A stretch of DNA of 24,486 nt, from positions 1 to 24,486 of IMG/VR virus record IMGVR_UViG_3300042090_000745. One strand, given 5' to 3'. Origin of the DNA: a virus. Shown here in pieces: positions 2,717 through 24,486 of the stretch (positions are counted from its first letter, which is position 1; each line of letters opens with the position of its first letter). The translations under genes and the position numbers were made by a program. The notes under the pieces are model-generated. The model saw only the letters and a program-made list of their open reading frames with translations, was not told the origin of the DNA and made no database searches.

Positions 2717-4489
2717 ATGGCACACAGAAAAGCTAAAGACGCACCCAAAGTTTTTGAAACAGATCGAAAGAAAATTCGTCAAATGGTTCTACATACCATG
2801 AAAAGAATTTCTGACGCAGTTGGATCTACTCTTGGTCCTGGCGGTTTGAACGGTCTTATTGAAAGCGATTTTCCTGGCATTCCTAATAAGAATACCAAGG
2901 ACGGCGTTACAGTTTTTGAATCATTAGGAGCAATCGATGCCTACGAACATCTTATCATTGAACAAGCGCGTGACGCAGCGAAGAGAACTGGTGCGGAGGC
3001 TGGAGATGGAACTACTACAGCTACAATCCTTTCTTATGCCATTATCCAAAACCTTTTTGAATTCTGCGCCAAAAATCCAAAGTATAGTCCCCAAAAAGCG
3101 GCGCGAAGGATTTCGAAAGTAGCAAATAGCGTTCTGATCCCTTACATCAAAGAACGCTCTATAAAAATTACAGAAGATAATCAAAGTCTTTTAAAATCCG
3201 TGGCCACAATTTCCGCAAACGGCGATCACGATATGGCGAAAGCTGTTATTCAGGCTTTTGAAGAAATTGGTTATGGGGATGCTTCACACGTTACTATCCG
3301 TGAAGTTTCTGGCGAACCTGGTTACAAGGTTGAACGAATCGACGGTTTCCCAATAGCTATGGGTTACGAAGACTCTATTGGTAAAATGCATACCGCTTTT
3401 ATCAACGATCAAGCGAATCAACGGGTTTACTTAGAAAAGCCTTTATTTCTTTTGTATGACGGCCAAATGACTGACATTATGGCAATCATTCCTTTGTTGG
3501 ATGATATGACCAGAAAATATGTTGACGAAGGTAAGAGCGAATTTAAGAATCTTGTAATTGTTGCACATAATTTCTCAGAGTCAGTCATCACGCAACTTGC
3601 ATTTGCATTCTCAAATCCCACCCAAATGAATATCGTTCCATTGATTACTCCAATGGCGCAATTCGCAAACTCACAACTTCATTTCTTACAAGATTTGGCC
3701 GCGTTTACTGGAGCTAAGATGTTCGGTCTAAAAGATCAACTCGCAACGGTAACTCAAGACGATCTTGGTCGTGGAATGGAATACATTGAAATTTATCGCT
3801 TTCGCTCTACTGTGGTCGGCGACCCCGATCCTACGAACGTCGAAGTTCGCGCAGAAGATTTGAAAGTCATGTTGCAAAACTCTGAAAGTAAAGCTGAAAA
3901 AGTTTGGCTACAAGAAAGAATTGGAAAAATTACAAATGGAATCGCAAAACTCACAATCTACGGTGGTTCAAATGGCGAGCTTAAGGAAGCGCACGACAGG
4001 TGTGAAGACGCGGTTTGCGCGGTTCGCGCTGCTATCGGGCATGGTGCTTTACCTGGGGGTACTCGTGTTGCTATTGATCTTGCTCTTAAAATCGGACAGG
4101 AACTCGAAAGCGGAGATCCCGCAAGAGAAGTCCTCATGCCAAGCCTCATGTCCCTACCCCTAAGACTCCTGGAAAATGCCGGAAATAATGCGGATGAGAC
4201 CAATGCTATCATAGCGAAATTAATCGAAAATCCCGATTTAGTGTACGATGTTGAAAACGATAAGTTCGGAAAAGCCGAAGAGTTGGGCCTATTTGACGCA
4301 ACCAAGGCCGTCTCTGAATCTTTATCAAATGCGGTAAGTATCGCATCTGTCCTTGGTACCATGGGCTGTATCGTTTGCCATCCTCGTGATGGCGATTTCG
4401 AACGTGCAGAAGCCAAAGCAGATAATGAGTTTACTCGAAATACTGAAAATCCTAATGCTTTTGTAAATGAAGCGAACGAGAGACCGTAA
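2717..4489 (+). CDS. groL: Phage-encoded GroEL-like chaperonin
   Basis: The 590-residue product is a group I chaperonin subunit. The ATP-site blocks are present: TLGPGG (38-43), KDGVTV (61-66) and GDGTTTATIL (96-105). In the C-terminal equatorial domain, around residues 425-455, a DRCEDAVCAVRAA segment is followed by the LPGG turn. Bacterial GroEL is about 548 residues. This one has extra residues in the apical/intermediate region and lacks the Gly-Gly-Met C-terminal tail, ending NPNAFVNEANERP. No GroES-like gene is visible in the window, so it either uses the host co-chaperonin, a distant phage one, or none. Its place at the head of a capsid operon suggests folding of virion proteins. The start lies two bases after the previous stop, and the stop overlaps the next gene (TAATG). 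Confidence 0.96.
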   Translation: MAHRKAKDAPKVFETDRKKIRQMVLHTMKRISDAVGSTLGPGGLNGLIESDFPGIPNKNTKDGVTVFESLGAIDAYEHLIIEQARDAAKRTGAEAGDGTTTATILSYAIIQNLFEFCAKNPKYSPQKAARRISKVANSVLIPYIKERSIKITEDNQSLLKSVATISANGDHDMAKAVIQAFEEIGYGDASHVTIREVSGEPGYKVERIDGFPIAMGYEDSIGKMHTAFINDQANQRVYLEKPLFLLYDGQMTDIMAIIPLLDDMTRKYVDEGKSEFKNLVIVAHNFSESVITQLAFAFSNPTQMNIVPLITPMAQFANSQLHFLQDLAAFTGAKMFGLKDQLATVTQDDLGRGMEYIEIYRFRSTVVGDPDPTNVEVRAEDLKVMLQNSESKAEKVWLQERIGKITNGIAKLTIYGGSNGELKEAHDRCEDAVCAVRAAIGHGALPGGTRVAIDLALKIGQELESGDPAREVLMPSLMSLPLRLLENAGNNADETNAIIAKLIENPDLVYDVENDKFGKAEELGLFDATKAVSESLSNAVSIASVLGTMGCIVCHPRDGDFERAEAKADNEFTRNTENPNAFVNEANERP

Positions 4490-4862: not shown

Positions 4863-6684
4863 GTTAATGTTCCAAAAATTAGATTCCGCAGAAGGAATCA
4901 AAAATTGGGCACGACTTTTCTTAAATCTAGAACTTCCATTAGAAATTACAGATCCCGAAAGTAACTCTTCGCCATTGGACGCTATTTGGCAGATCTATAA
5001 TACTTTCAAAAACAACTCAGGCGATGTGACCCCTGGTTACATCCTCATGTCTTGTCGTGAAGGTATGAAGACGGTTTCTGTAGCTATACTTGAGATGCTA
5101 CTTCTTTTGCATTTCGAACTCGACATCGGTCACGCTGCCGCCATCGAAGATCAATCATCTATCGCCCTTGGTTACATCAACGGGTTTATTATGAACATCA
5201 CACCCTTGATCGAAGTTTCTGGGTGGACCAAGATTTCGGAGAATAAACGTTTAATTAAATATCAAGTCCCTTCTGGCAAACAACCCTTTATTAAAATCGT
5301 AATTTGTAACCCTAAAGGTATGAACTCGCTACACGCGAACGTTCTATTTTTGGATGAGTTAGATCTTGCAGATCCCGCAGCTTTGAAGGAAGGCTTGTTT
5401 ATCACAGGTTATTCAAAAGGTTGGAACGGCGTCGAAGTCTTCTTGTCTACTCGTAAATACGCGTTCGGAAACATGGCTAAAGCTATTGATACCGCTGCAG
5501 AAAAGAACTATAAGATTTTACGATGGAATATCCTAGACGTTACAGAACGTTGTCCAGCCACTAGATATAAACCAGAAGGTGAAAAGAAAGATCGTTACGT
5601 CGCGAAAGCCCTCCCTTTACAACAAGTTTCCGTAGAAGACTATAATGGGATGCCTGATGTTGAAAAATCAAAATTTGATTTAATCAAAGACGCTTACGAG
5701 GGATGCCAATCTTGCGCTTTATTGCCAGTTTGCAGAATGAGACTTTCTGAAAAGCCCATAACTGCTACTGGAGGATTCTATAAACCTATTACGACCATCC
5801 TACAGTCTTTTAGAAAATCAGATCCAGATTCTGCAGAAGCTCAGTTACTATGTTGGAAGCCAGGATCTGAAGGTTTAGTTTACAAACGTTTTACTACCAC
5901 TAAAGCTCCTGGTAAAGATTCAAACGTTTTGACTCTCAAAGAAGCGTATGAAAAGTTGGTAGGTCCCACTGCCAGAACTTGGATCAGCGAAATGGATCTC
6001 TTACATGAGATGCGTAAAGCTGGAGTGAAGATCGTAGCAGGGGTTGACTGGGGCTATACTCACCCTTTCGTTATTATTATTTATGCAATTTTAGTTACTG
6101 GCGAAGTTTGGTGTATCGACTGTTACTCTGCGCCAGGCCTAGAATTTCCAGACATGTTAAACGCTGCACTTACATTCCGTGATAAATACGATCCTGAAAA
6201 ATGGTGGTGTGACCAACAACAACCGTCCCACATCAAATCCTTCAATAAAAACCGCATGAAGTCTCCAAAGTTTACAAAAGACGTCATGGGCGGTATCGAA
6301 TCCATGCGTTCTAAGATCACGACTGGAGATGGTAAGAAACTTTTCAAAATTATCGAGACTCCAAACACGGCCAAAGTCAAGACTGCGTTCCAGGCCCATA
6401 GATTTAAACTCGACCCTCAAGGTAACGTAACTTTAGAGCCCGATGACACCGCTGGAATCGCCGACATTTGCGACGCTGGTCGTTACATTGGTCAAAATGA
6501 GTTTCCAGTCAAGGGACCCCAAAAACCAGAGGTTTCCTGGACCGATGTTGAAGACCAATCCATGGAAAATCAAAACCCTACCGATACTGACCAAATGAAA
6601 GAGGAAATAGCCAAACGTATTGCAGATACTGGCCAATTAAAGGGTGGTACAGGGAAGAAAGGAGGGTTCCATTGGAATATATAA
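4816..6684 (+). CDS. terL: Terminase large subunit
   Basis: The 622-residue DNA-packaging motor has an N-terminal ATPase and a C-terminal RNase H-like nuclease. A deviant Walker A is SCREGMKT (79-86) and Walker B is VLFLDELD (176-183), followed by the FLST coupling motif (209-212). The nuclease acidic residues are expected at D411 (GVDWG), D466 (WCDQQQ) and D550/D553 (ADICDAG). Between the two domains is a cysteine cluster, C297-x2-C300-x5-C306 (with C246 possibly joining), likely a metal-bound linker insert. The enzyme translocates DNA into the prohead through the portal and cuts concatemers. The start has a modest upstream GAGACAAAAG leader and overlaps the upstream mini-gene. The 3' end overlaps the homing endonuclease gene. 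Confidence 0.95.
   Translation: MHFSSLTNEEKLEYAELMFQKLDSAEGIKNWARLFLNLELPLEITDPESNSSPLDAIWQIYNTFKNNSGDVTPGYILMSCREGMKTVSVAILEMLLLLHFELDIGHAAAIEDQSSIALGYINGFIMNITPLIEVSGWTKISENKRLIKYQVPSGKQPFIKIVICNPKGMNSLHANVLFLDELDLADPAALKEGLFITGYSKGWNGVEVFLSTRKYAFGNMAKAIDTAAEKNYKILRWNILDVTERCPATRYKPEGEKKDRYVAKALPLQQVSVEDYNGMPDVEKSKFDLIKDAYEGCQSCALLPVCRMRLSEKPITATGGFYKPITTILQSFRKSDPDSAEAQLLCWKPGSEGLVYKRFTTTKAPGKDSNVLTLKEAYEKLVGPTARTWISEMDLLHEMRKAGVKIVAGVDWGYTHPFVIIIYAILVTGEVWCIDCYSAPGLEFPDMLNAALTFRDKYDPEKWWCDQQQPSHIKSFNKNRMKSPKFTKDVMGGIESMRSKITTGDGKKLFKIIETPNTAKVKTAFQAHRFKLDPQGNVTLEPDDTAGIADICDAGRYIGQNEFPVKGPQKPEVSWTDVEDQSMENQNPTDTDQMKEEIAKRIADTGQLKGGTGKKGGFHWNI
6661..6666 (+). promoter_or_regulatory. Shine-Dalgarno of the GIY-YIG gene, inside terL
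   Basis: GGAGGG at 6661-6666 lies five bases before the TTG at 6672. It is embedded in the last codons of terL (the Lys-Lys-Gly-Gly segment). It is the strongest ribosome site nearby and decides the TTG start, since the next ATG (6720) would delete the first half of the GIY-YIG motif. Confidence 0.75.
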
Positions 6685-7490
6685 CAGGATTTATATATTT
6701 GATACGAAATAAAATAAATGGTATGGAATATGTCGGACAGACTATTCAAAATTTACAAAAAAGATTACAAATGCATCAATATATTAAAAGTCACTGTTCT
6801 TATCTAAGAAACGCCATGAATAAATATGGGTTTGAAAATTTTGAAATGATATGTTTAGAAAAAATTTTAGAGCCCACAAGAGACTCTTTGAGTGACAAGT
6901 TAAATATTTTAGAAAAAGAATATATTTTAAGAAAAAATACTCTTTTTCCAAAAGGTTACAATTTGACTACTGGTGGTAGTCAGCCAATAATTTCTAGTGA
7001 TAGTGTCGAAAAAAGAGCGAAAAAACACAGAAAGCCGGTTATATGCCACGAAACTGGGATCATATATCCGTCTCTTAAAGATGCCGCAAAAGCTTTTGGC
7101 ACTTACAAAGAATCCATTCATAGAGTTTTAAGGGGTAGGCGTTTGACGTTTAGGGGATTTACATTTTCTTATTATGGGGTAGAGCGTAGAAAACATTCCA
7201 AAGAAACTATTAAAAAAATTAAAGAAGCTAGAAAAAAGCAGAAAAAGGTTTTCGACATAGGAGCTTTTTCAAAAACGGAAGCCGGTAAGAAAAGAATGAG
7301 AAAACCTATAATGTGTCATCAAAATGGGATAATTTACGAATCTGCCAAACAGGCGGCTGAATTGCTAGGTATAGGTAGGGTTCATATTAGCTCTGTGCTA
7401 ACAGGTAGACGTAAACATACGTTTGGATTCACTTTTTGTTACGCCAACAATCTTAAGCTAGTAGCCTTAAGAGGACATATTAATGAGTAA
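6672..7490 (+). CDS. GIY-YIG homing endonuclease with NUMOD repeats
   Basis: The 272-residue protein starts at TTG and overlaps terL by 13 bases. The GIY-YIG nuclease covers about 1-95: GFIYLIRNK (6-14), EYVGQT (19-24), catalytic Arg within QKRLQMH (R31) and a downstream Glu in ILEKEYI. A NUMOD3-like basic segment (KHSKETIKKIKEARKK) lies between two NUMOD1-like helix-turn-helix repeats. Those begin HETGIIYPSLKDAAKAFG (about 125) and HQNGIIYESAKQAAELLG (about 214). Such enzymes cut a specific site and copy themselves into it; they are selfish elements rather than phage functions. Base composition is more AT-rich than the neighbours, consistent with a recent arrival. The 3' end overlaps the next virion gene by eight bases, so the insertion left both flanking frames intact. 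Confidence 0.93.
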   Translation: MEYITGFIYLIRNKINGMEYVGQTIQNLQKRLQMHQYIKSHCSYLRNAMNKYGFENFEMICLEKILEPTRDSLSDKLNILEKEYILRKNTLFPKGYNLTTGGSQPIISSDSVEKRAKKHRKPVICHETGIIYPSLKDAAKAFGTYKESIHRVLRGRRLTFRGFTFSYYGVERRKHSKETIKKIKEARKKQKKVFDIGAFSKTEAGKKRMRKPIMCHQNGIIYESAKQAAELLGIGRVHISSVLTGRRKHTFGFTFCYANNLKLVALRGHINE

Positions 7491-12849: not shown

Positions 12850-12850
12850 A

Positions 12851-13213
12851 ACAACCGTGGGCATTTTGGGCTTTACAAGTCTTCTCGCCCTAATGTCCTT
12901 TCGGACAGACTATCCCTCGTCAGGGTGTTTCCACGGTTGTCCCTCAATCATGCATACCAGGCTTGATTCTGGCTCGACGTAGTGGCCCCTAATCATATGG
13001 CTCTACGCAATCTGTCCAACGCGATCTGCGGATTAGGATCGTCCATCCTTTCGGATGCTTCGTTGGCACGTAGGTCCTTCCCTACCGATGCACTATGAAA
13101 AATGTTACCCCACGAATGCTTGCTGGCACCCTATCATTCCTTGTACTTCGGAACTTCCTCTCGCATTACTAATCTAGGTGCAACCCCAGACCACCCTGCA
13201 ATCAGTGGGACAA
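12851..13213 (-). ncRNA. Large structured RNA with RNase P-like conserved blocks
   Basis: A gene-free stretch reads on the minus strand as an ornate RNA. In order it shows GAGGAAGTTCC (13160-13150), AGGGTGCCAG (13132-13123), GGGGTAAC (13111-13104) and AGTGCA (13094-13089). These match, in order and rough spacing, bacterial RNase P blocks GAGGAAAGTCC, AGGGTGCCAG, GGGGTAAC and AGTGCC. Near the 3' end, AGAAGACTTGTA (12885-12874) resembles the last conserved block. AAG(U)UC and GACUU can form a P4-like helix with a bulged U. TTGTCCC (13213-13207) pairs with GGGACAA (12943-12937). The 3' domain is closed by ten pairs (12851-12860/12931-12940) and has a GAAA-capped hairpin. The middle part does not align well. 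It ends in a U-rich run and follows tRNA-Arg. Confidence 0.5.
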
Positions 13214-13221
13214 TTCGTAAT

Positions 13222-13298
13222 TGGTTGATCCGACTGGAATTGCACCAGCGACCTTCCCGTTCGTAGCGGGATGCTCTGTCTGTCTGAGCTACAGATCA
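13222..13298 (-). tRNA. tRNA-Arg(ACG)
   Basis: A complete 77-nt cloverleaf has acceptor TGATCTG/CGGATCA, D-stem GCTC/GAGC, anticodon stem TCCCG/CGGGA and loop CTACGAA (anticodon ACG, so A34 would need deamination to inosine). The variable loop is AGGTC and the T-stem GCTGG/CCAGT. Discriminator A73 and a gene-encoded CCA are present. The D-loop AGACAGACA has A18-G19 and the T-loop TGCAATT has G55, unlike the usual G18-G19 and T54-T55. It lies between hairpins (5' side) and the RNase P-like RNA (3' side). Confidence 0.92.
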
Positions 13299-13363
13299 AC
13301 ATCGTGTAGATGGCCTTTCACTTGGATTACTGACTCATAATATGACTTAACAAAATTATAGTC

Positions 13364-13377
13364 AGGTCCTCAGACCT
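13364..13377. other. Small perfect hairpin in tRNA spacer
   Basis: AGGTC-CTCA-GACCT is a five-pair hairpin with a four-base loop. It lies between tRNA-Arg and the 13379 hairpin. The spacer 13299-13363 contains short palindromes but no gene that I can see. It may help separate the mature RNAs in a common minus-strand transcript. Confidence 0.4.
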
Positions 13378-13378
13378 T

Positions 13379-13398
13379 GCCTCCTACACGAGGCTTTT
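13379..13398 (+). terminator. Candidate intrinsic terminator for the plus-strand operon
   Basis: GCCTC (13379-13383) pairs with GAGGC (13390-13394) across a six-base loop and is followed by TTTT. Stem length and short U-run make it a weak to moderate rho-independent terminator in the plus direction. It would stop read-through from the head operon before the oppositely transcribed tRNAs, but lies over 500 bases after the last plus-strand gene. On the minus strand it may simply be a processing hairpin. Confidence 0.45.
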
Positions 13399-13406
13399 AA
13401 ATAAAA

Positions 13407-13536
13407 AGGACGGTCTACGGGTTGTGAGCCCGTCGTTAACCACCCATATCGGCAAATTCCGGAATTACGCTGCATCTGAGCTAACTTCCGATACCCGTGG
13501 CTCACTTTGCTGCCAGTTAAAAATCCTGGCCGTCCT
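13407..13536 (-). ncRNA. Pseudoknotted structured RNA of unknown family
   Basis: AGGACGG/CCGTCCT (13407-13413 with 13530-13536) closes a 130-nt element. Inside are CCAG/CTGG (13513-13516/13526-13529), TATCGG/CCGATA (13447-13452/13488-13493) and GTGAGCC/GGCTCAC (13424-13430/13499-13505). ACGGGT (13417-13422) can pair with ACCCGT (13493-13498), crossing the GTGAGCC helix and making a pseudoknot. ACGGG can alternatively form a local anticodon-arm-like hairpin with CCCGT (13428-13432). On the minus strand the closing helix is followed by TTTTATTT, like the other structured RNAs here, which favours that strand. It lies between tRNA-Met and tRNA-Arg. No tRNA can be completed from it. Confidence 0.6.
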
Positions 13537-13544
13537 AAAAAAAT

Positions 13545-13622
13545 TGGTTGCGGAGGCAGGACTTGCACCTGCATCAATTTGCCTTATGAGGGCAATCTGG
13601 CACTACTTCCAGGCACTCCGCA
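13545..13622 (-). tRNA. tRNA with CAU anticodon (elongator Met, or Ile2)
   Basis: The 78-nt cloverleaf has acceptor TGCGGAG/CTCCGCA (seven perfect pairs), a D-stem CTGG/CCAG with an extra base before it, anticodon stem TTGCC/GGCAA and loop CTCATAA. The variable region is ATTGAT, the T-stem GCAGG/CCTGC, followed by A73 and an encoded CCA. A paired first base and lack of G-C triples in the anticodon stem exclude an initiator. Whether C34 becomes lysidine (Ile) cannot be decided. The D-loop contains A18-G19 and the T-loop is TGCAAGT (G55). Its trailer is U-rich. Confidence 0.9.
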
Positions 13623-13628
13623 ACGACT

Positions 13629-13655
13629 ACGCTTTTGTTTTTACGAGAAAAGCGT
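13629..13655. other. Spacer hairpin between two tRNAs
   Basis: ACGCTTTT (13629-13636) pairs with AAAAGCGT (13648-13655), eight pairs with an eleven-base loop. It sits between tRNA-Pro and the CAU tRNA and probably insulates or helps process the precursor. It is not long enough to be a gene. Confidence 0.5.
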
Positions 13656-13676
13656 CGCGTCCTAAAACTCGATATG

Positions 13677-13751
13677 TGGTCTGGGAGGCTGGAATTGCAC
13701 CAGCGGCCTCCTCGTTCCAAACGAGGCCGTCTTCTGCTGACTTACACCCAG
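13677..13751 (-). tRNA. tRNA-Pro(UGG)
   Basis: The 75-nt cloverleaf has acceptor CTGGGTG/CTCCCAG with one T-T mismatch at 6-67, a three-pair D-stem (GTC/GAC), anticodon stem CCTCG/CGAGG and loop TTTGGAA (anticodon UGG). Variable AGGCC, T-stem GCTGG/CCAGC, A73 and an encoded CCA complete it. C1-G72 with A73 fits bacterial proline tRNA. The D-loop AGCAGAA (A18-G19) and T-loop TGCAATT (G55) repeat the anomaly of the other two tRNAs. It is the first RNA of the minus-strand cluster. Confidence 0.92.
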
Positions 13752-13796: not shown

Positions 13797-14033
13797 TTAC
13801 TCGCCGCGTCGAGTGTCCCAAAGCATGACATTCCTTATATGTCCGCGAAACTTCTCAAATTCAGTTACAAGCTTGACAAAAGACTCTTTTACTTGCAAGT
13901 TACCCTCTTTATGGGCCTGAATAGCTAAAAGTTGAAGATTTTCTATTCGCATCTTCAGGGCCTCATTTAATTCACGTTTAGCCAGAAAATAACCTTCGCT
14001 GGGCGTTTCAAGCTTTTTAACTTCCCTGTGCAT
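13797..14033 (-). CDS. Small helical hypothetical protein
   Basis: A 78-residue frame starts at ATG 14033, preceded by GGAG, and overlaps the RNA ligase end by 17 bases. A longer in-frame start (14126) would overlap the ligase by 110 bases and is unlikely. The product is charged, helical and probably coiled-coil (LAKRELNEALKMRIENLQ, then FVKLVTEFEKFRGH). No family is recognised. It is the last protein gene before the tRNA cluster on this strand. Confidence 0.65.
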   Translation of the reverse strand: MHREVKKLETPSEGYFLAKRELNEALKMRIENLQLLAIQAHKEGNLQVKESFVKLVTEFEKFRGHIRNVMLWDTRRGE

Positions 14034-14862
14034 ATCGCTGTTTCTCCACGACTTCTTGCACGAATTTGAAAATATTTCCCGCAAGCTGTTTACGAATCCC
14101 ATTAACTTCAACCTCATTACCTTCAACCTGATTTTCTTTCATCAAATCTGCAAAATAATCCTTTACTATGTCGCCCATGGTTGATGGATAGCCTTTTAAA
14201 TACTTCTCATCGCGAGATAAAAGCTTCTCTAAACGCATGGGTTGTAACAAATGACCATATTTTGTCAGGGCGATGGCTGCTTTGTCAACCTTTTCTTTTG
14301 CGTAGGTTTCGTCTTTACCTTTCCATTTAGCGTCTTCCGCCTGGAAAACAACTTTATAACGTTCGCCTTTGATGCGGCATACCACACCTTCTGGACGCAT
14401 AAACCCTGGTACCAATTTGGAACCATTGGTTTTGAGATCATTCATAACTTCTTCAATCTTACTAAGATCGAAAGCGCCTTCGTACAAAACTGGGACAATG
14501 ACGGTATGCGGTGGCAACGGTCTTTCAGGAGGATATTTCCAGTGGTCAAACAGTACGAAAGTTTTTTCTTTCAAACCTTCGCCAGAATTAATGCCAGGAC
14601 CAGCCCATTCACCATAATGACGCCCGTAGCCAAGTTTATCAATGAATTCTTGTTTATTGGCATGAACCATCTCCGCAAAGCCATAATTGTCGCTTCCTGG
14701 AGCTATCCAACGGGTCCTAGAGCCACAAAGTAACTCAGCCCCAGTCTCGCCAGGGTAAATATAGATTTGTGCATTGGAGCCGTGAATTTTTTGAGTAATA
14801 AATAATGCGGCCTTACCAAGTTGCTTGATGTCTGGGAACGATTCGAATGGTGGCAAACTCAT
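14017..14862 (-). CDS. RNA ligase, Rnl2-like
   Basis: The 281-residue protein has the nucleotidyltransferase motifs of the PF09414-type RNA ligases. Motif I is KIHGSN (25-30) with K25 as AMP-lysine; SRTRW (48-52), GEWAG motif III (84-88) and FVLFDHW (102-108) follow. Motif IV is PEGVV (157-161) and motif V YKVVF (169-173). It would seal 3'-OH/5'-phosphate breaks in RNA, as T4 Rnl2 does, and could repair cleaved tRNAs or other RNAs. Gene order supports this loosely: it is 300 bases from a tRNA/structured-RNA island. It overlaps its upstream neighbour by four bases (ATGA). No polynucleotide kinase is visible in the window, so it may need a 5'-phosphate end made elsewhere. Confidence 0.88.
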   Translation of the reverse strand: MSLPPFESFPDIKQLGKAALFITQKIHGSNAQIYIYPGETGAELLCGSRTRWIAPGSDNYGFAEMVHANKQEFIDKLGYGRHYGEWAGPGINSGEGLKEKTFVLFDHWKYPPERPLPPHTVIVPVLYEGAFDLSKIEEVMNDLKTNGSKLVPGFMRPEGVVCRIKGERYKVVFQAEDAKWKGKDETYAKEKVDKAAIALTKYGHLLQPMRLEKLLSRDEKYLKGYPSTMGDIVKDYFADLMKENQVEGNEVEVNGIRKQLAGNIFKFVQEVVEKQRYAQGS

Positions 14863-18729: not shown

Positions 18730-18987
18730 TTACGTGTTGGGTGGTTTTGGTAATTCCGCCCAATAAACATTTTCTTCATCAAAATAACTTTTGCTGCCAA
18801 ACTCTGAAAAATAGCCTTTGGCTTCCATCAGATTATTGACCATCTCTTCACCACATCCATGTTGTAGTAATTCTTGCTTATCGTAAAAAATGGCACATGA
18901 GACGTACATATAATGGCCGGTCCAAACTAAATAATCTGGACCTTCTTTGGGCAACTTTTCAGTTACTTTATTCCATTCAGTAGTCAT
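18730..18987 (-). CDS. DUF551-like small protein
   Basis: The frame extends to a GTG at 19008, but the conserved-looking start is ATG 18987, giving 85 residues. It begins TTEWNKVTEKLPKEGPDYLVW and ends YWAELPKPP. This is the W..V.E.LP..G..VLV ... W..LP.PP outline of DUF551, a family common in phages and without a known function. No ribosome site clearly prefers either start, so the N-terminus is uncertain by seven residues. It overlaps the macrodomain gene by 11 bases. Confidence 0.75.
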   Translation of the reverse strand: MTTEWNKVTEKLPKEGPDYLVWTGHYMYVSCAIFYDKQELLQHGCGEEMVNNLMEAKGYFSEFGSKSYFDEENVYWAELPKPPNT

Positions 18988-19420
18988 AAACCGTAAAGCT
19001 TTCTCCACTCTCTTTGAGAATGGCTTTTGTGTCTTTCCAAGGAACCCTGAATAATCCAGAGTTTATCTTGCACATGTGCATCGGTTTCTTATCTACGTTC
19101 TGCGCGATCAAATCATCTATGGCCGTCTTAGTAGCCTTGAGTATTCTATCAGGACTATCCACGTATTGTCCAAAGCTTTTTGATGTAAAAAGGCACCCTA
19201 TAGTGTATTTTCCTGCGGGAATCAATAAACACGTACCTAGCAGTTTTGAACCATTGGCTTGACATACTGCAGAATAGATGTCTCTTTGCCTGGGGAATAA
19301 CTTTGCGAAAGCCTTGGCTATACCAGAACCCCAAACACCCTTAGTATTACAGGCGTGGATAATTATAGATCCATGAGGAGCGCTAAACAAGCTTCCCTTG
19401 ATGGTAGTCACGTTGCTCAC
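18977..19420 (-). CDS. Macrodomain protein, ADP-ribose-binding
   Basis: The 147-residue protein starts at GTG 19420 in a GTGA overlap with the upstream stop. It is a single macrodomain. IIIHACNTKGVWGSGIAKAF (19-38) holds the ADP-ribose pocket Asn and the glycine loop, and INSGLFRVPW near residue 118 is the second phosphate loop. The family binds ADP-ribose or hydrolyses ADP-ribosyl groups or ADP-ribose-1''-phosphate (Poa1p-type). It lies in the same minus-strand gene block as the Prs-like/Nampt-like pair, so ADP-ribose handling is a reasonable shared theme, and reversal of host ADP-ribosylation is another option. Which activity it has cannot be told from sequence alone. Confidence 0.88.
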   Translation of the reverse strand: MSNVTTIKGSLFSAPHGSIIIHACNTKGVWGSGIAKAFAKLFPRQRDIYSAVCQANGSKLLGTCLLIPAGKYTIGCLFTSKSFGQYVDSPDRILKATKTAIDDLIAQNVDKKPMHMCKINSGLFRVPWKDTKAILKESGESFTVYDY

Positions 19421-21484: not shown

Positions 21485-22990
21485 CTACACTTTTGAAAGT
21501 GCAATCCTTCTTTTTATATCGCTAAAATTTTCCTTAACCAGAAGCTTACCGTCTCTAAAGACTTCTCGCAATTGGTCGCCTACGATAGTGTCCTTTAAGC
21601 TAAAGCCATCTTGGACCTTATAGCTATCGCCTTCCCTCAAAACGACCACGCGGCCCTTTTGAGATTTTTTGATGCCGTTATCAGTCTTTGGATCTTTGAA
21701 AATCTGCTTTTCATCACCTTTTATGACGCATAAGGTGCTCTTAAGAGCAAATCCAAAGGTATCGCGAGTGTTATACTGATAGGTGTATGAACCTATGCCA
21801 AAAACCACGTTGGTTGATGCAAAACCTTTATCCATCAGACGCTTCATAATTTCATCAGCTCGTTTGAGAGTGATAGCATCGCCATAGATCAAGCCGATGT
21901 GGGAATCCAGGACTTTGTATCTTTTATAATCGGTTTTGAACGTTCCCTCAGAAAGAGTTCCGCCAAAAGTTTCCCATAAACATTCTACTGCGCCTTTATA
22001 TTGAGGCGAGTCCTTGGGAGCATCTGGGTCGCCGCATACAATAAGTACGGGGTCGCCAGAATCCGGTCGAATTACGACTTTATCTCCATTTGGTCCACCG
22101 CTACGTGCCAATATGTCTTTCTTAAGTGCGGGCACTACGCGGGTGATAACATCCCAGAAGTCGTAACCATCGGAGACGATTGAAACTATACCATTTTTGT
22201 GAACTTCTGAAAGCATTCTTTTCAGGTATGTCATGTCATTGCCGTAAGCGCATTGAATCGAGTGTTCTGTGGCGGGTACTGAAGTCCCAACCAATTCCTT
22301 TTCAATGTTCGCGTTATAATAATACTCTGCGGCAGGTATGGCCGGAATGGTATCCGTTCCAACAAACGAGGTCAAGTGACCCATACCACTCAAAATTGCA
22401 GATCTTAATGAGGACATCCCACGGAATGAAAAATCATGTCCTTGAAATGGAGTAAAGTCAGTACTTCCAACAGTTTTGATGGCATAATGATCCATCATAT
22501 TTTTATATTCACGAGCAATAGTTGCGCTTGTAGTGGCTTGCCACAATTCGGCTGAAGCCAAAGACTCGATAAAATTTGTCAACCAAAAGAATCGAGGATC
22601 TGTGTTTTGTATGGTCATCGTTGGAACTCTTAATGGAACTAGGGTTCCTTCTGGAAGCGCCTTGATTGAAAGGGGTAGATAACCAAGATCATGCAGATCT
22701 TCGAGATGTTTGGTTTCAGGATTTGGATCTCCAAGAGTGCATGTAATGATTCTCTTGTATTCTCCGATCATCACGCCTTTATCTTTTTTGAAAAAATGCT
22801 CATTAAACATGTCGATAAGGTATTCTTGATAGAATGCTTGTCCACCAAACCATACGACGTGATCGACACCCTTCATGCGCGTAGCACGAGGAGTCCAGGT
22901 TGAGTAAACGACTTCAGTACCTTCTGGGTACATCGCTCGATGAGCAATTTTGTAAAAGTCACATAAAATGGGCATTATCAGGTTTCTCAT
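21485..22990 (-). CDS. nadV: Nicotinamide phosphoribosyltransferase-like enzyme (Nampt/NadV or Namat)
   Basis: The 501-residue enzyme aligns well with human NAMPT (491 residues). Y13 (CDFYKIAH) and F187 (DFSFRG), the nicotinamide-stacking residues, are present. So are R190, D213 (GTDT), the catalytic-His block PATEHS (H243), R308-P-D310-SGD (RPDSGDP) and the IYGDAIT and FGIGS phosphate-loop regions. Classical members make NMN from nicotinamide and PRPP. In the phage NARP1 route a homologue (Namat) instead joins nicotinamide to ADP-ribose-pyrophosphate to give NAD+ directly. The partner gene is directly upstream, and no NMN adenylyltransferase is visible here. Its ribosome site lies inside the upstream gene, so the two are co-translated. 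The two activities cannot be separated by motifs alone. Confidence 0.95.
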   Translation of the reverse strand: MRNLIMPILCDFYKIAHRAMYPEGTEVVYSTWTPRATRMKGVDHVVWFGGQAFYQEYLIDMFNEHFFKKDKGVMIGEYKRIITCTLGDPNPETKHLEDLHDLGYLPLSIKALPEGTLVPLRVPTMTIQNTDPRFFWLTNFIESLASAELWQATTSATIAREYKNMMDHYAIKTVGSTDFTPFQGHDFSFRGMSSLRSAILSGMGHLTSFVGTDTIPAIPAAEYYYNANIEKELVGTSVPATEHSIQCAYGNDMTYLKRMLSEVHKNGIVSIVSDGYDFWDVITRVVPALKKDILARSGGPNGDKVVIRPDSGDPVLIVCGDPDAPKDSPQYKGAVECLWETFGGTLSEGTFKTDYKRYKVLDSHIGLIYGDAITLKRADEIMKRLMDKGFASTNVVFGIGSYTYQYNTRDTFGFALKSTLCVIKGDEKQIFKDPKTDNGIKKSQKGRVVVLREGDSYKVQDGFSLKDTIVGDQLREVFRDGKLLVKENFSDIKRRIALSKV

Positions 22991-22992
22991 AG

Positions 22993-23781
22993 CTATAATC
23001 TCCTATAGGCTATTTGGTTTTGGATACCTTTACACGCTTCACCATCTTGTGTAAAGATCCGTTTAATTCCAGCTTCTTGAAGGGGAGCTAAACCCTTTGA
23101 AAATATTCCATGTGTTACGAACAGATTTACTTCTTTAGCACCGCGCTCATAAAGAGCCTTAGCTAAAAGAACGAATGTGGCACCGCCATCACAAATATCA
23201 TCTACAATTAAGACTTTGAATCCACATGGAGCACCAAATTGGCTATCTGCAAGTTCATAGCTTGTGATTTTACCAGTTTTTTGATCCCTAACTTTATTTC
23301 CATGCAATTCTGCGTATTGGTATATTTTTGTGTATTTCTCAAATGCACCTTTATCGGGATAGCAAACGCCATCACTTCCGGTAACCAACATAACCTTTTC
23401 AACCATTTCTATAGGATATACTGCTTTAGCCATAAGAATATCCGTAGCCACTGAACTATGAGGGTCCATTATAGTTATTTCTTTAAATGACATTGAGTTG
23501 ATAAGTTTCGCAAACGAGCGAAGGGCGAACGTAGTGTCGTTTGAAATCTCTTTATCTTGACGACCATATGGCAAATAATCAAAATACAAACTTATGCGAG
23601 TAGTATTGTGACTTAAAAGATCGTATAACTGGGCAAGATGGGTTATTTCACCTTCGCTGTCAAATTTCCAACGAATAGTGTATTGCTTATGATCGCAAAG
23701 TTGATTTGGAAGATTCCAAATCTGGCTGGTCCCGTCTGGGAAAATGGTAGGTTTTATAGGAACTTCGTTTACGTAAAACAT
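22993..23781 (-). CDS. Ribose-phosphate pyrophosphokinase-like enzyme (Prs or Adps)
   Basis: The 262-residue protein shows Prs motifs. The pyrophosphokinase ATP block is YLPYGRQD (69-76), DPHS (106-109) is in the place of the metal-binding DLH loop, and VDDICDGGAT (193-202) is the PRPP-type phosphate loop. It is clearly shorter than bacterial Prs (~315). The N-terminal hexamer-forming part is reduced and the segment TGSDGVCYPDKGAF (134-147) replaces the usual SPDxGG flag region. Prs makes PRPP from ribose-5-phosphate; the NARP1 enzyme Adps makes ADP-ribose-pyrophosphate from ADP-ribose. The gene is upstream of the Nampt-like gene with a two-base gap, which is the NARP1 layout. It follows a terminator at 23812-23844, so it may start its own transcript. 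Confidence 0.9.
   Translation of the reverse strand: MFYVNEVPIKPTIFPDGTSQIWNLPNQLCDHKQYTIRWKFDSEGEITHLAQLYDLLSHNTTRISLYFDYLPYGRQDKEISNDTTFALRSFAKLINSMSFKEITIMDPHSSVATDILMAKAVYPIEMVEKVMLVTGSDGVCYPDKGAFEKYTKIYQYAELHGNKVRDQKTGKITSYELADSQFGAPCGFKVLIVDDICDGGATFVLLAKALYERGAKEVNLFVTHGIFSKGLAPLQEAGIKRIFTQDGEACKGIQNQIAYRRL
22999..23004 (-). promoter_or_regulatory. Shine-Dalgarno of the Nampt-like gene inside the Prs-like gene
   Basis: AGGAGA on the minus strand lies eight bases before the ATG at 22990. It is made by the last Arg-Arg codons of the Prs-like gene. Termination of one protein thus exposes or recycles ribosomes onto the next, supporting a fixed ratio of the two enzymes. Confidence 0.7.
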
Positions 23782-23861: not shown

Positions 23862-24486
23862 TTACTTCTTCTGAACGTTATTGTCCAGTGAAATTTTTTC
23901 AACTTCAGCGACCATGACGCCAGGCGCAACTTCGTTTCGCTCCATGATGTCAAAAATCTTATCGCTCCAGCCCGTCAATTTCATAATTTGAGCATTTTGA
24001 GGAGTCATCTCATTCGAGTAGCCCTTCAAATTGATCGTATAGATTTTGACGTCAGGGTTGATTTTCATATATTGTGTTAAAAGCTTGTTAAAATTGTCGG
24101 CACGGTTTCCAACGGTATCGTACCATTGGCAAGTATCCCCAACTTGACAGTCGGAAAAAATTACAATGCGATCAACGATGTCTTTGGTCTTGATGAGGAT
24201 CTTGAAAGCATCGAAAATACCTTGTTCTGTGCCAGAACCAACTTCTCCACCGGTCTTGGCAACTACTTTATAGTTTTCGAGCACACCTTTGGTGCGGTCC
24301 AATTTAGGTGAAAGGAGTCTGTCTCCGAACAGTCCGACAGAAGTGTTGTCTGCACGCATCCAATATAATGCTGCGAATAAATTTGCAATACTTGCCGTAG
24401 TGCGTTGTGAATATGCGGATGTCAAAGACGATCCATATGCGTCACCGCGCATAGATCCAGAGTTGTCGGACAAGATAAGGGTGCGG
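23862..24486 (-). CDS. TROVE/Ro-like protein, vWA C-terminal part (partial)
   Basis: The open frame continues past the right edge; 208 C-terminal residues are visible. The vWA segment begins RTLILSDNSGSMRGDAYG (MIDAS DNSGS), followed by SVGLFGDRLL, GSGTEQGIFDAF and IVIFSDCQVGD. These match the vWA domain of Ro60/TROVE ring proteins, which hold Y RNAs and misfolded RNA ends. The N-terminal HEAT-repeat ring part would lie outside the window, so the TROVE assignment needs confirmation. It is followed by an intrinsic terminator. Ro and Y-RNA genes are known from some mycobacteriophages; a candidate Y-like RNA (18500-18725) lies 5 kb away. Confidence 0.72.
   Translation of the reverse strand, partial: RTLILSDNSGSMRGDAYGSSLTSAYSQRTTASIANLFAALYWMRADNTSVGLFGDRLLSPKLDRTKGVLENYKVVAKTGGEVGSGTEQGIFDAFKILIKTKDIVDRIVIFSDCQVGDTCQWYDTVGNRADNFNKLLTQYMKINPDVKIYTINLKGYSNEMTPQNAQIMKLTGWSDKIFDIMERNEVAPGVMVAEVEKISLDNNVQKK

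Follow-up and report, generated by a model that had tools for sequence, protein, structure and literature searches.

The contact of G18 with U55 is one of two nearly universal base contacts at the corner of a tRNA. In this elbow, residue 18 is inserted between 57 and 58 and touches residue 55, which begins the turn of the T-loop (PMC4810234; PMC7912444); reviews regard pseudouridine-55 and its partner G18 as universal features of tRNA (PMC7912444; PMC4810234). T-loops built on a GNR triloop have been described in the AdoCbl and FMN riboswitches (PMC2258182). In the open-access literature we found no description of a tRNA elbow with A18-G55 and no paper on CPR tRNA loops, and phages go unmentioned in a review of non-canonical tRNAs from 2020. 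The DNA analysed here, a 24,486-base IMG/VR virus record from an uncultured phage (the window), contains exactly three tRNA genes according to ARAGORN, all on the minus strand (Table 1), and all three have A18-G19 in the D-loop together with U54-G55-C56-A57-A58 in the T-loop.

Table 1. Positions of the tRNA genes, their elbow residues and other features within the window.
Feature	Position	Strand	Evidence or remark
tRNA-Arg(ACG)	13222..13298	-	ARAGORN; Rfam tRNA 57.2 bits; CCA encoded
tRNA-Arg elbow	A18 13281, G19 13280, U54 13244, G55 13243, C56 13242		structure numbering
tRNA-CAU	13545..13622	-	ARAGORN; Rfam tRNA 40.4 bits; CCA encoded
tRNA-CAU elbow	A18 13604, G19 13603, G55 13566, C56 13565		structure numbering
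tRNA-Pro(UGG)	13677..13751	-	ARAGORN; Rfam tRNA 52.4 bits; CCA encoded
tRNA-Pro elbow	A18 13735, G19 13734, G55 13698, C56 13697		structure numbering
RNA ligase gene	14017..14862	-	Pfam RNA_ligase 1.7e-12; PHROG 548 3.7e-30
Structured non-tRNA RNA between CAU and Arg tRNAs	13405..13545	-	fold z -1.9; closed by GGACGG/CCGUCC
Second closed-stem structured RNA	13300..13402	-	fold z -4.0
Closed-stem structured RNA with 11-bp terminal helix and three hairpins	12850..12946	-	fold z -4.9
Phage GroEL chaperonin	2717..4489		upstream of terminase
GIY-YIG/NUMOD homing-type endonuclease	6672..7490		overlaps end of terminase gene
Macro-domain protein	18977..19420		
NAMPT	21485..22990		
PRPP-synthetase-like protein	22993..23781		
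Probable Ro60-like vWA RNA-binding protein, C-terminal part	23862..24486	-	PHROG 850

Measured against the canonical bacterial elbow, the three tRNAs lack G18-G19 and U54-U55-C56-R57-A58 but keep G19-C56 and the Levitt pair 15-48 (G-C in tRNA-Arg and tRNA-Pro, A-U in tRNA-CAU); U54-A58 is also retained in all three. In structure numbering the D- and T-loops read AGACAGACA and TGCAATT in tRNA-Arg, AAGTAGTG and TGCAAGT in tRNA-CAU, and AGCAGAA and TGCAATT in tRNA-Pro. The original prediction had assigned A18-G19 and a TGCAANT T-loop to all three genes, which ARAGORN, Rfam and structure numbering bear out, and had held G19-C56 and the Levitt pair to be preserved, as they are. It had also linked the loss of U55 to the loss of the pseudouridine-55 target of TruB, and this much is certain from the sequence: G55 stands in all three tRNAs where a TruB substrate has uridine, and with U55 and G18 both gone there are no pseudouridine-55 and no Gm18 sites. 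The UU or CU at 18-19 and the glycine anticodon that mark the staphylococcal cell-wall tRNA-Gly are likewise absent, the window tRNAs having A-G at 18-19 and the anticodons ACG, CAU and UGG. The GTGCAANTCC motif has three matches in the window, all of them at the three tRNAs, where 0.22 would be expected by chance.

All three genes score above the 29-bit gathering score of the RF00005 covariance model and have its acceptor, D, anticodon and T stems with 7-nt anticodon and T loops, with minor mismatches in tRNA-Pro (U-U at 6-67 and A-G at 10-25); tRNA-CAU has a 3-nt linker 5' of the D-stem, a 6-nt variable loop and G21. The CAU gene is an elongator Met or Ile2 tRNA and not of the initiator type, since it has a full 1-72 pair and 29-31 is not GGG. 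It was not caught by the whole-window Rfam scan and was matched in a second Rfam search, an example which suggests that models expecting UUC at 54-56 score swapped tRNAs low.

In viruses and bacteria alike, the letters at 18 and 55 show very strong covariation, in line with the expectation that the change is concerted. The 'A18-U55' matches of a first A18 scan were mostly AGG, that is, GG shifted by one place, and for this reason a second scan required G55 and left any letter open at position 18. This complete scan, covering 2.9 million viral contigs in one tRNA frame, found 39 G55 tRNAs on 37 contigs, 37 of the 39 with A at position 18 (33 unambiguous A18, four AGG, one TGG and one GG); the pattern scans use one D-stem frame and two of them give counts of the 'at least' kind, so that their frequencies should not be extended to tRNAs in general. 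The bystander tRNAs, those fetched that matched no search pattern, gave 100 A18:G55, 7 A18:U55, 2 G18:G55 and 1185 G18:U55, counts that include related sequences and are not phylogenetically independent; the Fisher p of ~4e-138 is a guide only because relatedness is ignored. Over all tRNAs fetched, UC at 55-56 is accompanied by GG at 18-19 in 94% of cases, while GC is accompanied by AG in 97% and by GG in only 2% (n=249). G55 predicts A18 beyond chance. Half-switched tRNAs do exist (twelve A18:U55 and five G18:G55), and thus neither half-switched state is forbidden. Reportedly, the suppressor-tRNA libraries of the Steinberg group may bear on which 18-55 combinations are permitted. Judged from these letters, the A18-G55 swap is compensatory and recurrent.

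The 19-56 contact covaries too. Among all tRNAs fetched, G56 goes with GC at 18-19 in eight of eight cases, U56 with GA in six of seven and A56 with GU in three of three, the alternatives being Watson-Crick in each case (C19-G56, A19-U56 and U19-A56). Matching 18-19 letters are present in 21 of the 23 viral tRNAs that have a residue other than C at 56, compared with 7.6 after shuffling (0/20,000 shuffles). Since 18-55 and 19-56 both covary, both of these tertiary contacts between the D- and T-loops show compensatory change. The viral and array-borne tRNAs with C-G, A-U or U-A at 19-56 come from L254/L276, L265, L041, L067, L109, L188, L245 and L246; elsewhere the pair is nearly always G-C.

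Among viruses we found 92 distinct A18-G55 tRNAs at 40 loci, with 36 anticodons and all 20 amino acids represented. Position 57 is always a purine in these tRNAs, with A57 commoner than in canonical ones, A58 is present in 87 and U54 in 80. Most viruses with the swap have one swapped tRNA amid canonical ones; there are also arrays swapped almost throughout (L076/L279, on a 172 kb contig, where about 20 of the 21 tRNAs of L279 are swapped, and L259/L278) or in large part (L254/L276 and L265), and L276 mixes several elbow types, including C19-G56 and the double switch A18-C19/G55-G56. On the 172 kb contig of L076 a tRNA with the amber-reading anticodon CUA (L280:8448) has a canonical elbow; the other tRNAs of that virus are almost all A18-G55. 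Among phages the swap is the exception, and most unrelated phage tRNAs are without it: no swap was seen in Vibrio, Rhizobium, Agrobacterium and Enterococcus phages with similar tRNAs, which are canonical, and among cultured phages with similar tRNAs only Mycobacterium phage Bongo, in its tRNA-Cys, combines G55 with AG in the D-loop.

In bacteria, A18-G55 occurs, among the matches listed, in CAU (elongator and initiator) and Phe tRNAs of Patescibacteria, in Ile-GAU tRNAs of Endomicrobia and Firestonebacteria and in His tRNAs of Pelagibacter-like bacteria. Three metagenome bins (Oscillochloris, Opitutaceae and Chloroflexales) carry swapped arrays, and these look like foreign or mobile DNA because the chromosomal tRNAs sampled from those bins, 44 in total, are canonical without exception; such bins are incomplete and may contain foreign contigs. 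Mostly swapped arrays on contigs assigned to Opitutaceae and Chloroflexales bins (L140, L177, L188 and L189), which differ from the canonical chromosomal tRNAs sampled in three of these bins, are perhaps phage or mobile elements. Since the same paired swap is found both in other viruses and on the chromosomes of a few bacteria, it would seem to be a genuine and functional alternative, though one that cannot carry pseudouridine-55.

HIMB114, a free-living alphaproteobacterial isolate with a genome of 1.24 Mb in a single contig, has 32 tRNA genes; 31 of them are G18-U55 and the sole tRNA-His is A18-G55. That this is the only tRNA-His of the organism indicates that tRNAs with the swap are able to function in translation. 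The gene is probably essential, unless histidine is decoded in some other way, and it is the strongest evidence to suggest that a swapped elbow supports translation. The HIMB114 genome carries TruB, and thus loss of TruB is not a necessary condition. As a cause of the swap, TruB loss was rejected: TruB is present in 10 of 16 genomes including HIMB114, several of the others are incomplete bins, and the 16 include two bins with swapped arrays.

A search with the portal gene of the window phage identified 26 viral relatives, many of 150-176 kb, whose tRNAs are few and nearly all canonical. In one of these relatives (L324) the CAU tRNA has an orthologue that is 80% identical, with D-loop AAGAAGTG and T-loop TGCAAGT, in which the A18-G55 pair is retained despite divergence of the D-loop. 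In the closest relative (L343; portal 76%) a syntenic tRNA-Pro(UGG) follows the RNA ligase gene and has G55 in a TGCAAGT T-loop; its D-loop has AGG and position 18 is ambiguous. The nearest cultured relative is Myxococcus phage Mx1 (OR576727.2; terminase 30%), which shares with the window GroEL, RNA ligase, macro, NAMPT and Ro60-like genes and a CAU tRNA with G55 and AG in the D-loop, but in which 36 of 37 tRNAs have U55. A swap of the whole phage family is ruled out by its mostly canonical members and by Mx1, with one swapped tRNA in 37, and on the same evidence the claim that it is a trait of this phage as a kind is, as stated, unsupported. Since L324 and L343 share the trait within a mostly canonical family, it is inherited at particular genes and not family-wide.

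The RNA ligase gene lies directly upstream of the three tRNA genes, also on the minus strand, and has a possible role in tRNA repair. Several structured RNAs, each closed by a long helix at its ends, occupy the spaces between the tRNAs and the stretch that follows them, beside this gene (window 12850-13545, minus strand), and had no Rfam match in the whole-window scan; the layout is similar, with different sequences, in the relatives L343 (11388-11827, plus strand) and L324 (about 13590-13735). The Ro60-like protein could bind the nearby structured RNAs; Mx1 has a TROVE/Ro60 protein. The NAMPT, PRPP-synthetase-like and macro-domain genes of the window resemble NAD-restoring counter-defence, and Mx1 has NAMPT and NMN adenylyltransferase.

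Why the swap was fixed is a different matter from what it is, and the likelihoods that we attach to the following explanations, which concern the former, overlap with our preferred reading of the latter. The data would accommodate drift, independence from modification or evasion of elbow-reading enzymes; drift or modification independence is ranked above escape from a nuclease because ordinary chromosomal isoacceptors also fix the swap. If A18-G55 is a near-equivalent of the canonical pair, two mutations away from it, then neutral compensatory drift could have fixed it at random in small or fast-evolving genomes. We regard this as a plausible account, if one that falls somewhat short of an even chance: the swap recurs in unrelated isoacceptors and lineages, small-genome bacteria among them, and half-switched intermediates exist in low number, but drift acting gene by gene is unlikely to yield three swapped tRNAs out of three in the window or the nearly complete replacement in arrays such as L279. 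A role in counter-defence, in which the letters of the elbow change and its shape is kept in order to evade a putative nuclease or other enzyme of the host that recognises U55/G18 or the T-loop, seems to us unlikely. Some viral arrays do vary their elbow letters in several ways at once (A18-G55, C19-G56 or both; G003/L276), the cassette adjoins an RNA ligase gene and the phage has NAMPT and macro-domain genes of counter-defence type; against this, the swap is also fixed in those chromosomal isoacceptors, no matching nuclease is known here and many phages have only one swapped tRNA of many. To the same low degree we would entertain an 'elbow code', by which viral arrays would alter 18-55 (G-U/A-G) and 19-56 (any Watson-Crick pair) in a compensatory manner, one tRNA at a time, with selection preserving the L-shape and favouring escape from enzymes that recognise the universal GG/UUC letters, whether host modification enzymes or anti-phage tRNA nucleases.

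The suggestion that the pair reflects the host lineage, whose own tRNAs would carry A18-G55, finds a foothold in the chromosomal pair of Patescibacteria (CAU and Phe), Endomicrobia (Ile) and some alphaproteobacteria (His), lineages that use it in one or two isoacceptors. Against it stand the three MAGs with swapped arrays, where every sampled chromosomal tRNA is canonical, HIMB114 and a Dojkabacterium, which were read nearly or fully and have one swapped isoacceptor each, and the largely canonical Mx1, which infects Myxococcus; as the explanation for the window we consider it improbable. More improbable still is that the three genes are degenerate or serve outside translation in the manner of the staphylococcal cell-wall tRNA-Gly, which has UU/CU for G18G19 (PMC4052509). 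The stem and linker irregularities of tRNA-Pro and tRNA-CAU are minor and are set against near-complete cloverleaves, encoded CCA, retained 19-56 and 54-58 pairs, a conserved orthologue and the sole tRNA-His of HIMB114. A mis-numbered D-loop or a tool artefact may practically be dismissed: some 'AG' calls are AGG with GG one place along (4 of 39 in the complete scan), but G55 in the T-loop is free of any choice of numbering, and because none of the three window D-loops contains GG, A18-G19 is the only reading that fits G19-C56.

We think it likely that the three genes encode phage tRNAs of a working type, with an alternative tertiary pair at the elbow. G55 would fill the second position of the T-loop to give the U-GNR-A form, and A18 would sit between 57 and 58 and pair with G55, replacing G18-pseudouridine-55 and leaving G19-C56, U54-A58 and 15-48 unchanged; on the simplest reading, the A18-G55 purine pair would keep the stack 58-18-57-56/19 intact. 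We infer an A18-G55 contact in the folded molecule and an L-shape that would be equally stable without pseudouridine-55 and Gm18, making the stability of the elbow independent of both modifications; through the swap the phage may likewise have become independent of host TruB/TrmH. A natural and recurrent replacement in viral arrays and in a single-copy, probably essential bacterial tRNA shows that a tRNA can do without the 18-55 pair and without the sites for TruB and Gm18, provided that both letters change together. Swapped tRNAs are thus a natural test set for the roles of pseudouridine-55 and Gm18 and for whether phages reshape tRNAs to dodge host enzymes.

The T-loops of the AdoCbl and FMN riboswitches (PMC2258182) have a U-GNR-A form like that of U54-G55-C56-A57-A58 in the window; these riboswitches are not tRNAs, and the comparison concerns the form of the triloop. 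With canonical elongator tRNAs (G18-pseudouridine55, G19-C56, U54-A58) the window tRNAs have in common the cloverleaf, the 7-nt T-loop, G19-C56, U54-A58, R57, the Levitt pair and CCA, but they have A18-G55 where the canonical elbow has G18-U55 and are without a TruB or Gm18 site. The non-proteinogenic tRNA-Gly of Staphylococcus aureus (PMC4052509) is also a natural bacterial tRNA with altered 18-19; there G18G19 is replaced by UU/CU and the EF-Tu binding pairs are weakened, whereas in the window tRNAs G19 is kept and 18 and 55 change together.
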